Positions 8,151-41,649 of a stretch of 64,000 bases of DNA are shown in pieces (position 1 is the stretch's first letter; each line of letters opens with the position of its first letter). The position numbers were made by a program, and so were the translations under genes. Source of the stretch: Paeniglutamicibacter psychrophenolicus. GTDB lineage: Bacteria; Actinomycetota; Actinomycetes; Actinomycetales; Micrococcaceae. The notes beneath the pieces were generated by a model that was not told the DNA's origin, searched no databases, and saw only the letters and a program-made list of their open reading frames with translations. The stretch is taken from NCBI RefSeq assembly GCF_017876575.1, contig NZ_JAGIOE010000001.1, forward strand, positions 62,001 through 126,000. The letters run 5' to 3'.

Positions 8151-9980
8151 CTAGGCGCCCAAGCGCTCCTTCAGGCCTTCAAGCTCGGCACGCAGCGACG
8201 CGGGAAGCGCCTCGCCGAACTTGGCGTACCACTCCTGGATGCTGGCCAGCTCGGTGGCCCATTCGTCCTTGTCGACGACCACGGCGGCCTCGACGTCGGC
8301 CGGGGTCATGTCCAGACCGGTCAGGTCGATCGAGTCGCCGGTCGGCACGAAGCCGATCGGGGTCTCCACGGCCTCGGCCTTGCCCTCGATGCGATCGATG
8401 GCCCACTTCAGCACGCGGGAGTTGTCCCCGAACCCGGGCCAGGCGAACCCGCCGTCGGCGTCGCGGCGGAACCAGTTCACCAGGAAGATCTTGGGCAGGC
8501 GCGCCGGGTTGGCCTTGGACTCGATCGAGTCCCAGTGCTTCAGGTAGTCGCCGGCGTTGTAGCCGATGAAGGGAAGCATGGCCATCGGGTCGCGGCGGAC
8601 AACGCCCACGGCACCGGCTGCAGCGGCAGTGGTCTCCGAGGACAGGGTCGAACCCATGAAGATGCCATGGGCCCAGCTGCGGGCCTGGGTGACCAACGGG
8701 ATGGTGGTCTTGCGGCGGCCACCGAAGAGGATTGCGTGGATTTCCACGCCGTCGGGGCTGTAGTACTCCTGCGAGAGCATGTCGACCTGGTCGATCGGGG
8801 TGCAGAAGCGGGAGTTCGGGTGTGCCGCGACACGACCGGACTCGGGGGTCCAATCGTTGCCCAACCAGTCGGTCAGGTGCGCCGGGACCTCGTCCGTCAT
8901 GCCCTCCCACCACACGCCGCCTTCGTCGGTGAGTGCAACGTTGGTGAAGATCGAGTTGCCCTTGGTGATGGCGTTCATGGCGTTGGGGTTGTTTGACCAA
9001 CCGGTGCCCGGTGCCACGCCGAACAGGCCGTATTCCGGGTTGACGCCGCGAAGCTCGCCGTCCTTGCCAATGCGCATCCAGTTGATGTCATCGCCCAGGG
9101 TCTCGGCCTTCCATCCCTCGATGGTCGGATCCAGCAGGGCCAGGTTGGTCTTGCCGCAGGCAGACGGGAAGGCCCCGGCAATGTTGTAGCTCTTGCCTTC
9201 GGGGTTGGTCAGCTTGAGGATGAGCATGTGCTCGGCAAGCCAGCCCTCGTCGCGGGCCATCACCGAAGCGATGCGCAGCGCGTAGCACTTCTTGCCCAGC
9301 AGTGCGTTTCCGCCGTAGCCCGAGCCGTAGGACCAGATGGAGCGCTCTTCCGGGAAGTGCACGATCCACTTGTCTTCGTTGCATGGCCAGGCCACGTCCT
9401 GCTGTCCGGGGGCCAGCGGGGCGCCAACCGAGTGCAGCGCGGGGACGAAGAATGCGTCCTCTGCCTCGATCTGGCGCAGGACCTTGTCGCCGATGAGTGC
9501 CATGATGCGCATGGAGGCGACAACGTAGGCCGAGTCGGTGATTTCCACGCCGTACTGCGGCTGCTCGGCGTCGAGCGGGCCCATGACGAACGGAATGACG
9601 TACATGGTGCGGCCGCGCATGGCACCGTCGAAGAGGCCGGTAAGCATGGACTTCATCTTGACCGGGTTTTCCCAGTTGTTGGTGAAGCCGGCATCCTTCT
9701 CGTCTTCCGAGCAGATGAAGGTGCGTTCCTCGACGCGTGCGACATCCTTGGGGTCGGAGAACGCTGCGAAGGAGTTCGGGAACGAAGGATCCGTAAGGCG
9801 CTTCAGCGTGCCGGTTTCAACCAGCTCGGCGGTCAGGCGATCGTTTTCCTCCTGCGTGCCGTCTACCCAATAGACACGGTCAGGCTTCGTCAGTTCCGCG
9901 ATTTCCTGCACCCAAGCGGCTAGCTTTGCGTGCGTGGTCGGTGCTGCGTCGATGACCTTCTGGTCCGAGCTCTCGCTCAT
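8151..9980 (-). CDS. pckG: Phosphoenolpyruvate carboxykinase (GTP)
   Basis: The 609-aa protein matches GTP-dependent PEPCK in length and motifs: P-loop [15 protein letters not shown] near residue 280, the guanine/metal region [30 protein letters not shown], and [12 protein letters not shown]. It interconverts oxaloacetate and PEP with GTP, the first step of gluconeogenesis, in the cytosol. Start ATG 9980 is preferred because GGAGGG lies 7 nt upstream; two upstream in-frame ATGs (9986, 9995) are too close to or upstream of that site. It is transcribed alone, with its own terminator, from a 309-bp upstream region. Confidence 0.97.
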
Positions 9981-38523: not shown

Positions 38524-38614
38524 GGAGACGTGTCCGAGCGGCCGAAGGTGCAACACTCGAAATGTTGTGTACGGTAACCCCGTACCGAGGGTTCAAATCC
38601 CTCCGTCTCCGCCA
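38524..38614 (+). tRNA. tRNA-Ser(CGA)
   Basis: A class II tRNA of 91 nt: acceptor GGAGACG / CGTCTCC, anticodon stem CAACA-loop-TGTTG with CGA in the loop, a long variable arm (GTACGGTAACCCCGTAC), and T-arm GGTTCAAATCC. Discriminator G and encoded CCA fit serine identity. It decodes UCG. Confidence 0.98.
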
Positions 38615-38875: not shown

Positions 38876-39610
38876 TCAGGAATGCGGCCGCATCAGCGGT
38901 GGATTGAGCACCGCCCGGACCGGTTCGCCAGCCGCGGAACGGGCTTCCGCCGCGAGCCGGAAGAGCGCTGCGGGGCGGCCCGCGTCGCCCGTGGTCATCC
39001 GCCCCGTGTCCTCAAGGAAACCGGGGTTTCCCGTGGCCTTGCGGTGGAAGTTCCGGGGATCCAGGCGGGTGCCCCATACCGCTTCATACACGGCCCGCAG
39101 CTGCGCGATGGTGAACTCCTCCCCGCAAAAAGCCGCCCCCAGCGGCGAGTACTCGAGTTTTGACCTTGCCCGCTCCACTGCGTCGACCAGGATGCGGGCA
39201 TGGTCGAACGCCAGATGCCTTTCCCCCGCCAGGACATCGCCGACCGGGCACCAGGCAGCCTGCTCGGCGTCGCTCCCGGCAGACAAGACGGGAAAGTCGG
39301 GCGCAAGCAGCAGGTGGGCCACGGTGAGCACATCCCCTCGCGGGTCGCGCCCCTGCGGCCCATAGCTCTGCAGCTGCTCCAGGTGCCCCGGCACCTGCTC
39401 GACCCCGGTTTCCTCCGCCAGTTCGCGGATCGCGGCCTCCCCCAGGCCCTCTCCGGCCAGCACGAATCCTCCCGGCAGCGCGAGCCGGCCGCGGAACGGC
39501 TCGATGAGGCGCGTGATGAGCAGGACGTTCAGGACATCGTCGCGGACGGTGAGGGCGACGATGTCCACCGTCACCGGGAAGCGCTGGAGCGCGGAAGGGA
39601 AATCGGCCAT
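38876..39610 (-). CDS. NrtR-like Nudix regulator (Nudix domain plus winged helix)
   Basis: This 244-aa protein has an N-terminal Nudix domain with an intact box, G-x5-E-x7-REL-x-EE-x-GV (GGFVLAGEGLGEAAIRELAEETGV), and a C-terminal winged-helix half (EYSPLGAAFCGEEFTIAQLRAVYEAVWGTRLDPRNFHRKATGNPGFLEDTGR). This two-domain layout defines NrtR, the ADP-ribose-responsive repressor of NAD metabolism genes; the C-terminal FHRKxxxxPGFLEDTG block is typical. Because the Nudix box is complete it may also hydrolyse ADP-ribose. It is divergent from an SPFH/NAD-kinase-like operon with two matching operators in between. ATG 39610 is used; an upstream in-frame start lies inside operator 1. Confidence 0.85.
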   Translation of the reverse strand: MADFPSALQRFPVTVDIVALTVRDDVLNVLLITRLIEPFRGRLALPGGFVLAGEGLGEAAIRELAEETGVEQVPGHLEQLQSYGPQGRDPRGDVLTVAHLLLAPDFPVLSAGSDAEQAAWCPVGDVLAGERHLAFDHARILVDAVERARSKLEYSPLGAAFCGEEFTIAQLRAVYEAVWGTRLDPRNFHRKATGNPGFLEDTGRMTTGDAGRPAALFRLAAEARSAAGEPVRAVLNPPLMRPHS

Positions 39611-39627
39611 GCACCCATCATAAATAC

Positions 39628-39648
39628 TTATCGTCACCTTGACAATAA
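39628..39648. promoter_or_regulatory. NrtR-type operator 1
   Basis: TTATCGTC-N5-GACAATAA, 21 bp with one mismatch in the arms. It overlaps the -35 box of the plus-strand promoter and lies 18 bp before the Nudix start, so a bound repressor could control both directions. Confidence 0.75.
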
Positions 39649-39668
39649 ACACGAAAGCTCCCTATGCT
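39639..39668 (+). promoter_or_regulatory. Near-consensus sigma-A promoter of the SPFH operon
   Basis: TTGACA (39639-39644), an 18-nt spacer and TATGCT (39663-39668). The -35 lies within operator 1 and the -10 is 4 bp upstream of operator 2, so the promoter is bracketed by the twin sites. Confidence 0.75.
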
Positions 39669-39672
39669 TTTC

Positions 39673-39693
39673 TTATCGTCAATCAGACGATAA
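39673..39693. promoter_or_regulatory. NrtR-type operator 2
   Basis: TTATCGTC-N5-GACGATAA, 21 bp with perfect arms (9-bp arms at 39672-39694). It has the same arm length and spacing as operator 1, giving the consensus TTATCGTC-N5-GACRATAA, and lies over the expected transcription start. Confidence 0.82.
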
Positions 39694-39721
39694 GTTGCAA
39701 AGGTTGAGGAGCGACCCCATC

Positions 39722-40741
39722 ATGGCCACCATCAAGAACTACCCCTGGATCAGCCACTTCCTGGGCAGCCCCACCGGTTACGTCGTCCACCTGCAAAAGG
39801 GTGCCATCAGGCACCGGGGTGTGGGCCAGGCATTCTGGTTCCGGCCGGCGGCATCCGTGCTGAGCGAGGTCCCCGTCGACGACCAGGAACTGCCCACGCT
39901 CTTCCACGCCATCACCCGCGACCACCAGGACGTCAGCGTCCAGGCCAACGTCACCTACCGCTTCGTGGACCCGGTTTCCGTGGCCAGCCGGCTCGACTTC
40001 GGCCTCCAGCAGGCAGGCCCGGCAACGTCCGGCGGCAAGGAGCAGGTGGCCACCATCATCGGCCAGCTCTGCCAGAGCCACGCGATCGACCACATCGCCA
40101 CCACCACGCTCGCCCAGTCGCTGGAACGCGGGGTCAGCGAGCTGCGCCAGATCCTCACCGAGGCCCTCGGCACGGACGCCCGGCTGGCGTCCACCGGCAT
40201 CGAGATCCTCGGCGTGCAGGTCCTCGCCGTCCGTCCGGAGTCAGAGGTCGAACGGGCCCTGCAGACACCGGTCCGCGAACACCTGCAGGCCGAGGCCGAC
40301 CGGGCCGTTTACGAACGCCGGGCGGTCGCGGTCGAACGCGAGCGGACGATCTCGGAGAACGAGATGGCCAGCAAGATCGAGCTGGCCTCCCGGCGCGAAA
40401 GCCTCGTGGCCCAGGAGGGGGCCAACGCCAGGCGCGAGGCCGAGGAGCAGGCCGCTGCCGGCCTCATCCAAGCCAATGCGGAAGCCGAACGCCGGGGCAT
40501 CGGCGCCACCGCCGAGGCCAACCACGTCCGTCTGGTGGGCGAGGCGGAAGCGGCACGGGAAGCCGCCGCCATGGAGGTCTACCGGGGCATGGACCAGTCC
40601 ACCTTGCTGGCAGTGGCCTTCCGCGAGGCCGCCGGATCGCTGCCGAACATCGGGAACCTGACGGTCACCCCGGACCTGCTCAGCGGGGCCCTGGCCGGGT
40701 TGTTCCGGGAACCGGGCGCCTCGGCCGCAGACGGAAAGTAG
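39722..40741 (+). CDS. SPFH/Band-7 domain protein in NrtR-linked cassette
   Basis: The 339-aa protein has an N-terminal SPFH/Band-7 domain (residues ~10-190, including RHRGVGQAFWFRPAASVLSEVPVDDQE and VTYRFVDPVSVASRLDFGL). A long Ala/Glu/Arg coiled coil (~200-295, EAERRGIGATAEANHVRLVGEAEAAREAAA) follows, then a short C-tail. No TM or signal segment precedes the SPFH domain, so membrane association, if any, is peripheral. GAGGAG lies about 10 nt upstream of ATG 39722. It is the first gene of an operon with an NAD-kinase-like protein, driven by the promoter between the twin operators. SPFH proteins form oligomeric scaffolds; the role here is unknown. Confidence 0.85.
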   Translation: MATIKNYPWISHFLGSPTGYVVHLQKGAIRHRGVGQAFWFRPAASVLSEVPVDDQELPTLFHAITRDHQDVSVQANVTYRFVDPVSVASRLDFGLQQAGPATSGGKEQVATIIGQLCQSHAIDHIATTTLAQSLERGVSELRQILTEALGTDARLASTGIEILGVQVLAVRPESEVERALQTPVREHLQAEADRAVYERRAVAVERERTISENEMASKIELASRRESLVAQEGANARREAEEQAAAGLIQANAEAERRGIGATAEANHVRLVGEAEAAREAAAMEVYRGMDQSTLLAVAFREAAGSLPNIGNLTVTPDLLSGALAGLFREPGASAADGK

Positions 40742-40749
40742 GCCCGGCC

Positions 40750-41649
40750 ATGGCAACACCTCGCCTCGTCATCGTCCATCGGCGCACCGAACTGGCCCAA
40801 TTGCTGGACCGGCACGCCACCGTGGGCCAGGCTGAGTTCTTTCTCCGCACCCGCGGCCGAACCATGGCCGCCGTCCAGGAACGCCACGAGCTGCTCGGCG
40901 CGGCCCTGGCAACGGTCCGCGCCGCGGTCCAGCCCGACTGGCGCCTCGCTGAGGTGGAACGGGAGGACCTGAACAGGTTCATGTTCGCGGCCGAGGACAT
41001 CATCGCCGTGGTGGGCCAGGACGGGCTCGTGGCCAATGCGGCCAAGTACCTCGCCGGCCAGCCTGTCATCGGGATCGACCCGGAACCGGGAATGAATCCG
41101 GGCGTACTGGTCCGGCACACCGCCGCGGATGCCGCACGGTTGCTGCGGGGCCTCGCCCCGGGCAACGGAGGCCCGCTGCCGTTGCCCTGCCGGGAACTGT
41201 CCATGGTGAGGGCCAGGCTCGACGACGGACAGGAACTGTCGGGACTCAACGAGATTTTCATCGGGCACCGGGCCCACCAGTCGGCCCGCTACCGGCTCAC
41301 GACATCCAACGGCCGAACCGAGCATCAGTCGTCGTCCGGTCTCATCGTTTCCACCGGGACGGGCGCCACCGGATGGTGCGCCTCCATCGCGCAGGACCGC
41401 GGCGGTCGCACCCTGCCGGCCCCCACGGACCGGCGCCTGGCCTGGTTTGTCCGCGAAGCCTGGCCCTCCCCAGTCACCGGCACGTCCCTGACCGAAGGCG
41501 TGCTGGAGGCGGACGAACCGCTTCGCCTCACCGTGGCGTCGGACCAACTGGTGGTGTTTGGCGACGGTATGGAGCAGGACCGACTGACCGCCTCGTGGGG
41601 GCAGGAAATCAGCGTCGAACTGGGCCGCCGGCCACTGCGGCTGGCGTAG
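40750..41649 (+). CDS. NAD-kinase-like protein
   Basis: The 299-aa protein resembles NAD kinase. DIIAVVGQDGLVANAAKYL stands at the GGDGT position (the second Gly is Gln), SGLNEIFIGHRAHQSARYRL at the NE motif, and SSSGLIVSTGTGATGWCASIA at the glycine-rich TPTGSTAY motif. The Asp of GQDG and the NE pair are retained, so NAD(P) binding is likely, but the substitution and changed TPTGS motif make kinase activity uncertain. It starts 8 bp after the SPFH gene. Control by an NrtR-like Nudix protein fits a role in NAD(P) metabolism. Confidence 0.75.
   Translation: MATPRLVIVHRRTELAQLLDRHATVGQAEFFLRTRGRTMAAVQERHELLGAALATVRAAVQPDWRLAEVEREDLNRFMFAAEDIIAVVGQDGLVANAAKYLAGQPVIGIDPEPGMNPGVLVRHTAADAARLLRGLAPGNGGPLPLPCRELSMVRARLDDGQELSGLNEIFIGHRAHQSARYRLTTSNGRTEHQSSSGLIVSTGTGATGWCASIAQDRGGRTLPAPTDRRLAWFVREAWPSPVTGTSLTEGVLEADEPLRLTVASDQLVVFGDGMEQDRLTASWGQEISVELGRRPLRLA

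Follow-up and report, generated by a model that had tools for sequence, protein, structure and literature searches.

Gene layout and promoter region

The window analysed here, a stretch of 64,000 nucleotides from Paeniglutamicibacter psychrophenolicus (contig NZ_JAGIOE010000001.1, positions 62,001 to 126,000; host genome of 4.9 Mb), contains a three-gene cassette in which a regulator of the NrtR kind stands opposite an SPFH (Band 7) protein and a protein with a predicted nicotinamide adenine dinucleotide (NAD) kinase fold, and comparison with related loci shows that repressor, twin operator and SPFH–kinase pair are inherited together. The regulator, a Nudix plus winged-helix protein (Pfam NUDIX 4e-16, NrtR_WHD 7e-16), is encoded on the reverse strand at 38876–39610, for which we chose the ATG at 39610 and not the upstream GTG at 39652 as the start. 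On the forward strand follow the gene for the SPFH protein at 39722–40741 (339 residues, with a predicted helix of 116 residues; Pfam Band_7 3e-15) and, 8 base pairs (bp) further on, the gene for the kinase-fold protein at 40750–41649, whose product of 299 residues was placed by AlphaFold2, Foldseek and profile searches in an NADK2-related family with the signature GQDGLVAN. Three genes with a regulator divergent from an SPFH–kinase pair had already been described in the initial annotation, and the Pfam and fold matches bear this out. In 93 of 96 related loci, the distance between the SPFH and kinase-fold genes lies between a 4-base overlap and 10 bp, and the pair therefore looks like a single operon.

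The region of 111 bp between the divergent genes contains two palindromes of 21 bp, TTATCGTCACCTTGACAATAA at 39628–39648 (operator 1, TTATCGTC-N5-GACAATAA) and, at a distance of 45 bp, TTATCGTCAATCAGACGATAA at 39673–39693 (operator 2, TTATCGTC-N5-GACGATAA), which indeed share the consensus TTATCGTC-N5-GACRATAA that had been noticed initially. When the whole genome was scanned with up to three mismatches allowed, the two operators were found with zero or one mismatch and all other places with three, so no further place in the genome has two mismatches or fewer. A consensus scan for promoters in 3.2 kb gave two sites, one per strand, with 0.2 expected. TTGACA-18-TATGCT on the forward strand (39639–39668) is the predicted promoter of the SPFH–kinase operon, and TTGTCA-17-TATGAT on the reverse strand (39617–39645) is the predicted promoter of the regulator. 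Both have their −35 box within operator 1, and operator 2 begins at 39673, right behind the −10 box of the operon promoter, where it would cover the expected start site of the SPFH operon. The earlier view that the palindromes bracket the promoter TTGACA-18-TATGCT needs a correction, as this is no simple bracketing and its −35 box is part of palindrome 1. Because operator 1 holds the −35 boxes of both promoters, the layout suggests that a single repressor bound there could shut both divergent genes.

Inheritance of the gene set

Within the phylum, 396 genomes were sampled, and 13 of them, including that of the window, have the kinase-fold gene; it is present in 24 of 295 genomes of the family (three of them as partial matches) and in 7 of 15 genomes of the genus (one copy being broken). 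In the phylum sample, none of the 13 genomes with the kinase-fold gene lacks SPFH, which occurs in 14 genomes altogether; in the one without the kinase-fold gene, G211, the locus breaks off at a contig end, and the divergent regulator is present there. A scan of species genomes yielded 299 relatives, of which the best 80 were used, a selection that leans to close kin and in which the closest named records, judged by the kinase-fold protein, were Paeniglutamicibacter and Arthrobacter. Among 98 loci, SPFH adjoins the kinase-fold gene in 96, and 83 have a regulator (92 and 79 of 94 without duplicates), which is divergent in all of these loci except L037. Four records (L038, L039, L040 and L042) were duplicates; they were removed from the operator, neighbour and distance counts and from the alignments, and retained in the counts of the 98 loci, of the Nudix box (83 regulators) and of the hydropathy of SPFH proteins (94). 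The three genes are thus conserved together in relatives, and on this co-occurrence the comparison came out in favour of the initial annotation.

Alignments were made with the window protein and 66 of 91 usable loci for the kinase-fold protein, 54 of 86 for SPFH and 33 of 78 for the regulator, and SPFH frames with a stop were excluded (L031, where the stop lies beyond the gene end, L048 and L054). Over 75 loci, pairwise distances in one of the three proteins correlate with those in the others (r 0.91–0.95), as would be expected for genes inherited together. The only two loci that have no SPFH gene hold damaged kinase-fold genes, which in L043 is split into two frames and has a stop, and in L083 is without its first 72 residues. 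The remnant at L043:8070-8890 (genome G404) lies beside a tRNA-Ser gene of the same anticodon (CGA) as the tRNA-Ser gene at 38524–38614 that lies beside the cassette in the window, and in G404 it looks as if the regulator and SPFH had been lost and the kinase had then decayed. L048 carries, besides the intact kinase-fold gene, part of another copy at 9358-9711, which lies some 2.5 kb further downstream, and a similar partial copy is present in G553.

A fourth conserved gene of the cassette was considered and rejected, as the widest neighbour family, with crude gene calling, reached only 8 of 59 loci outside the Arthrobacter-like ones and 11 of 94 overall. Also rejected was a genuine member of the Bacillota: the record named Sporosarcina (L076) has 66.7% G+C and its protein is 73% identical to that of the window, and it is likely a contamination by an Arthrobacter relative or a recent transfer. 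This locus was given no phylum and was kept in the counts and alignments.

Operators, regulator and the link to nadA

The motif of the window was used to search the 150 bp that precede SPFH. In 84 of 90 loci, this stretch holds two sites that agree with the motif at 12 or more of its 16 positions, and such a pair occurred neither in 9000 shuffled regions nor in 90 in-gene controls. The palindromes are therefore present at orthologous loci, in agreement with the initial annotation, and chance palindromes were rejected on the basis of the genome scan together with this conservation and its shuffle controls. The distance between the two operators is 33–34 bp in 46 loci, 44–45 bp in 37 and 36 bp in one (n = 84), and the two major spacing classes differ by about one helical turn. 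In the class consensus, the right arm of operator 1 contains TTGAC, and in the class with the short spacing the −10 box (TATCGT, spacer 18) would be inside the left arm of operator 2.

The regulator itself scores above the cut-offs of both the NUDIX and the NrtR_WHD Pfam models and matches the Protein Data Bank (PDB) entry 3gz5 over 219 residues (2e-28). With 109.8 bits, it is below the cut-off of 400 bits of the NCBIfam equivalog for the repressor that responds to adenosine diphosphate (ADP)-ribose, and in terms of sequence it is related to, but not a member of, that equivalog. Both domains and the palindromic operator in its own promoter region support that it is of the NrtR kind. A full Nudix box was recognized by pattern in 79 of 83 actinobacterial regulators (four of the 83 being duplicates), and its key positions are kept in 33 or 34 of 34 aligned regulators. 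Because most actinobacterial regulators keep this box intact, we propose that they may be both the switch and an ADP-ribose hydrolase.

The pairing of regulator and site can be judged in genus g9, which we infer to be Streptomyces. In all seven g9 genomes with the cassette, nrtR is not adjacent, and the operator sites are still present upstream of SPFH. The displaced nrtR orthologue is 61–63% identical and, in four of the seven, lies on the same contig at a distance of 88–150 kb. An operator was found directly upstream of the displaced nrtR in all seven and also in the cassette-less genome G171, that is, in all eight genomes searched. As the site has been kept at both places after regulator and target were separated, there is strong comparative evidence that this regulator would bind the 21-bp site. 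It could still be argued that the palindromes belong to an unrelated regulator and that the Nudix protein is a bystander, as the pairing comes from sequence comparison and the binding itself is a prediction, but the operator at the displaced nrtR in eight of eight genomes and the two sites in 84 of 90 loci make this very improbable. The regulation of the cassette is well supported by such comparisons.

NrtR proteins control genes that make or recycle NAD. A related operator site with two mismatches is found in all eight g9 genomes, and in the five loci that were fetched it lies at the start of nadA (identified by Pfam); in L198, the longest nadA frame begins before the site, and the start that is conserved in the other loci lies after it. 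Controls with the reversed pattern gave zero to two matches per strand and genome, so a lone site with two mismatches is not beyond chance, and the weight comes from its recurrence at the same gene. In G107 and G193, a further, weaker copy was seen by eye 34–35 bp upstream of the nadA site, which is the geometry of the cassette. The g9 regulon thus appears to consist of nrtR itself, nadA and the SPFH–kinase pair, and operator, regulator and NAD synthesis are therefore tied together. The link to NAD that had been postulated initially exists, in relatives. In the genome of the window, nadA adjoins a separate, second NrtR whose Nudix box is degenerate. The site that precedes this second NrtR shares a GTC-N5-GAC core with the cassette operator, which in our reading would be a trait of the NrtR family. 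In another genome (G023), two perfect operator copies were seen 6.4 kb apart at L185:6070 and L185:12509.

The operator of the same type at nadA could also be taken to indicate ordinary NAD homeostasis, in which the cassette would provide an NAD regulon with a second NAD kinase for the conversion of NAD to NADP(H), and SPFH would be a passive stabilizer. The fold, which is nearest to NADK2 (see below), fits this explanation as well. The regular SPFH partner, the GQDG signature and the spread on plasmids would be left unexplained, and we regard the explanation as rather unlikely.

The kinase-fold protein

The AlphaFold2 model of the kinase-fold protein has a mean predicted local distance difference test score (pLDDT) of 93.4, and its top Foldseek match is human NADK2 (4e-17, template modeling (TM) score about 0.7), with bacterial NAD kinases also among the nearest. 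NADK2 was likewise found in a profile search against PDB sequences (7e-16). These predictions strongly suggest an NAD kinase fold. By sequence the similarity is weak: human NADK2 is matched directly at 6e-8, and 23 of 67 members of the family match the Pfam NAD kinase model PF01513 at E values of up to 0.1, the best at 0.0012.

NAD kinases are defined by a GGDG motif, and the next position is usually Thr. In the aligned members of the kinase-fold family, the second position of this motif is Gln in 59 of 67 and Pro in 8 of 67 (GQDG or GPDG), the position behind the motif is Leu (GQDGL versus GGDGT), and the Asp is kept in all 67. The NE/D motif that follows, an Asn and then Glu or Asp, is present in 67 of 67, and its Asn never varies. 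GQDGLVAN is invariant in all 12 members of an alignment that spans three phyla; in the stretch GTGATGW, neither this alignment nor that of the 67 members shows any change of G, T or W. In NAD kinases, the Asp of the GGDG-type motif and the NE/D are catalytic motifs. The initial annotation was right about the presence of GQDG, but what it regarded as an altered NAD kinase motif is, judged by this conservation, a family signature rather than a defect.

An alternative is that the protein is catalytically dead and serves as an NAD(P)-binding sensor or lid for an SPFH assembly that carries out membrane or protein quality control. The replacement of the second Gly of GGDG by Gln or Pro in all 67 members, the Leu at the next position and the close pairing with SPFH could be explained in this way, but the invariance of the motif Asp, of the Asn of NE/D and of the G, T and W of GTGATGW in both alignments would be unusual for a dead enzyme, and we consider the alternative unlikely.

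The SPFH protein

The SPFH protein reaches 57 bits with the Band_7 model, whose cut-off is 23.6. In the AlphaFold2 model, the SPFH domain is followed by the helix of 116 residues (pLDDT 83.7, predicted TM score 0.51), and the C-terminus is poorly predicted. Foldseek lists HflK (3e-12), stomatin and erlin first, followed by flotillin and the vault; over the whole chain, the TM-scores are 0.3–0.5. A homology specific to the vault was rejected on the basis of this order, with HflK and stomatin ahead of the vault, which we use as an analogy. The initial annotation had considered the module to be membrane- or scaffold-linked. No membrane segment is predicted in the SPFH protein of the window, whose highest hydropathy over 19 residues is 1.16, and the highest value reaches 1.6 in only 2 of 94 homologues; a membrane-linked module was rejected on the basis of hydropathy and the AlphaFold2 model.

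The vault shoulder is described as an SPFH homologue (PMC13347060) and is reported to bind ADP-ribose, with earlier work cited for the binding of NAD and ADP at this place (preprint PMC13174449). By analogy, a soluble SPFH assembly might itself bind ADP-ribose or NAD and hold the kinase-fold enzyme with a new substrate, induced by ADP-ribose when NAD is consumed. We consider this far-reaching idea improbable, but if it were true, the connection of SPFH cages with products of NAD breakdown would be old and not peculiar to the vault.

Spread beyond actinobacteria and a possible role in conflicts

The kinase-fold protein is encoded in 64 of 72,556 plasmid records, 42 of these 64 in Rhizobium, and the gene order of the cassette is also found on Rhizobium and gammaproteobacterial plasmids. 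The kinase-fold proteins of Moraxella, Rhizobium, Treponema and Providencia are 36–38% identical to that of the window. Twelve of the 64 plasmid loci were inspected. An SPFH sequence is directly upstream of the kinase in all 12 (partial in L207), and a divergent Nudix regulator is present in 8; in L205, L206 and L207 no regulator was seen, and the plasmid of the spirochaete Treponema (L202) has the SPFH–kinase pair without an adjacent divergent regulator and a Nudix regulator about 4 kb off in the same direction. Seven proteobacterial promoter regions were tested and contain variants of the palindrome resembling TTAGTGTC-N5-GACACTAA, which are clear in Moraxella and Providencia and weaker in Methylomonas and Rhizobium; this motif was derived from the same loci on which it was tested, and the shuffle counts are therefore flattering. 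The whole cassette of a Moraxella osloensis plasmid (L200:4094-8841) and the partial one of L207 lie directly beside tetR(H)-tet(H), and the cassette may travel with this segment.

Such a spread raises the question of a conflict module that counters NAD depletion or ADP-ribosylation by phages, by toxins or by the NADases of the cell's own abortive infection systems. ADP-ribose would fire the switch, and the SPFH assembly and the enzyme would restore NAD or sequester the products. Besides the plasmids, the patchy occurrence in family (24 of 295, full or partial) and genus (7 of 15, one broken) and neighbour genes that change between loci are compatible with this, as are the Nudix-helix–turn–helix (HTH) regulators that are reported for ADP-ribosylglycohydrolase conflict systems (PMC9503650). 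However, matches in PADLOC were weak for SPFH (0.0045) and the regulator (0.017) and absent for the kinase, PHROGs recognized the regulator as a Nudix protein (2e-20) and gave no match for the SPFH or kinase-fold protein, and the kinase-fold protein, which alone was searched there, was not found in phage records or viral contigs. Moreover, the cassette is present in seven of the eight g9 genomes listed, a count that does not include 363 genomes that had no match. A defence-island gene has no clear support from these PADLOC, PHROGs and phage and viral searches, and a conflict module, including the proposed restoration of NAD or sequestration of products, appears doubtful to us. In one g9 genome (G246), an NrtR paralogue adjoins an ADP-ribosylglycohydrolase gene (L192:6851-8649) with the related palindrome TTATAGTCGTGCTGACTATAA directly upstream, a pair that fits the reported glycohydrolase systems.

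Proposed mechanism

What we propose, at about even chances, is a self-contained, ADP-ribose-induced module for NAD response or repair, with an NADK2-like enzyme mounted on a ring of SPFH protein. For its chemistry, with regard to ligand, assembly and substrate, we infer the following. As long as NAD is intact, the repressor would sit on the operators, and at operator 1 it could silence the regulator gene and the operon together. ADP-ribose from NAD breakdown would be bound by the Nudix domain and the repressor would be released, both of which follow from the NrtR family. The SPFH protein would then form a soluble ring or cage with which the kinase-fold protein acts jointly, and the dinucleotide pool would be converted or protected by the pair; the most probable reaction is the phosphorylation of NAD(H) or of a nucleotide of the ADP-ribose type. 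A regulator with an intact Nudix box may finally hydrolyse the inducer, which would reset the switch. There is a precedent for the logic of such a switch, as an NAD-consuming toxin is reported to derepress an NrtR target in Pseudomonas (PMC11535050).

Several observations weigh against this proposal. The sequence similarity of the kinase-fold protein to NAD kinases is weak, and with 14.8 bits (E 0.037) it stays below the PF01513 cut-off of 25.5. A canonical NAD kinase with GGDGS, recognized by its motifs, is also encoded in the genome of the window, and a second one is therefore not obviously needed. As the nadA of this genome lies beside the second NrtR, the nadA link of the cassette operator is seen only in relatives. 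Six of the 90 loci (L027, L036, L037, L086, L112 and L117) do not have two good operators, and in G214 both a neighbouring regulator and good operator sites are missing. The Nudix box is degenerate in three aligned proteobacterial cassette regulators, and the hydrolase step is therefore not general. The SPFH frame is interrupted by a stop in L048 (codon 140) and in L054 (codon 118), where the kinase gene is open; this could be sequencing error or early decay and, unless the stops are sequencing errors, speaks against a strict dependence on SPFH. Finally, shared species history contributes to the distance correlation, and many of the loci are close kin.

In the cassette, a regulator of a known class is joined to target genes that, as far as the literature searches reach, form an undescribed module. 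A description of the SPFH–kinase-fold pair was not found among the matches listed in the full-text literature, and a full-text search for SPFH combined with Nudix and NrtR or NAD kinase found none, in line with the initial impression that this is not a recognized system; the 2008 NrtR survey or RegPrecise may list part of the regulon. An arrangement in which a regulator of the NrtR kind stands opposite a protein of scaffold type and one with an enzyme fold has been kept from actinobacteria to rhizobia and gammaproteobacteria, and it suggests an undescribed bacterial response to NAD breakdown. Whether SPFH assemblies have a part in NAD metabolism thereby becomes directly testable, and an NADK2-like family with its own active-site signature is offered for assay. 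If a new phosphorylation of NAD or ADP-ribose is indeed involved, this would be an extra step in how cells survive the loss of NAD.

Comparison with known systems

The closest regulatory parallel is the NrtR-nadABC system of Mycobacterium smegmatis, in which a Nudix plus winged-helix repressor also adjoins its target and uses a palindromic operator, and which the second NrtR beside nadA in the genome of the window resembles. The cassette differs in its target, the SPFH–kinase pair, and in its Nudix box, which is intact here and degenerate there; in the Mycobacterium study, NrtR showed no hydrolase activity and its operator is given as GTTTTCGA-N7-TCGAAAAC, compared with TTATCGTC-N5-GACRATAA here (PMC6800001).

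With mitochondrial NADK2 and bacterial PpnK, the kinase-fold family shares the overall predicted fold, the Asp of the GGDG-type motif and the NE/D motif, whereas GQDGL, the stretches VREAWPS and GH.SHQSARY, the usual pairing with SPFH and the score below the Pfam cut-off set it apart.

The ADP-ribosylglycohydrolase conflict systems, as described, have the same kind of Nudix-HTH regulator, and the L192 pair with its related operator is such a case in one g9 genome; unlike these systems, the cassette contains no glycohydrolase, phosphatase or chaperone among its three genes (PMC9503650).

HflK, stomatin, erlin, flotillin and the vault shoulder all have, like the SPFH protein of the cassette, an SPFH domain that is followed by a very long helix. 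The cassette protein differs from them by the lack of a predicted membrane segment and by its usual company, a kinase-fold neighbour in 96 of 98 loci when these are counted from the kinase-fold gene.

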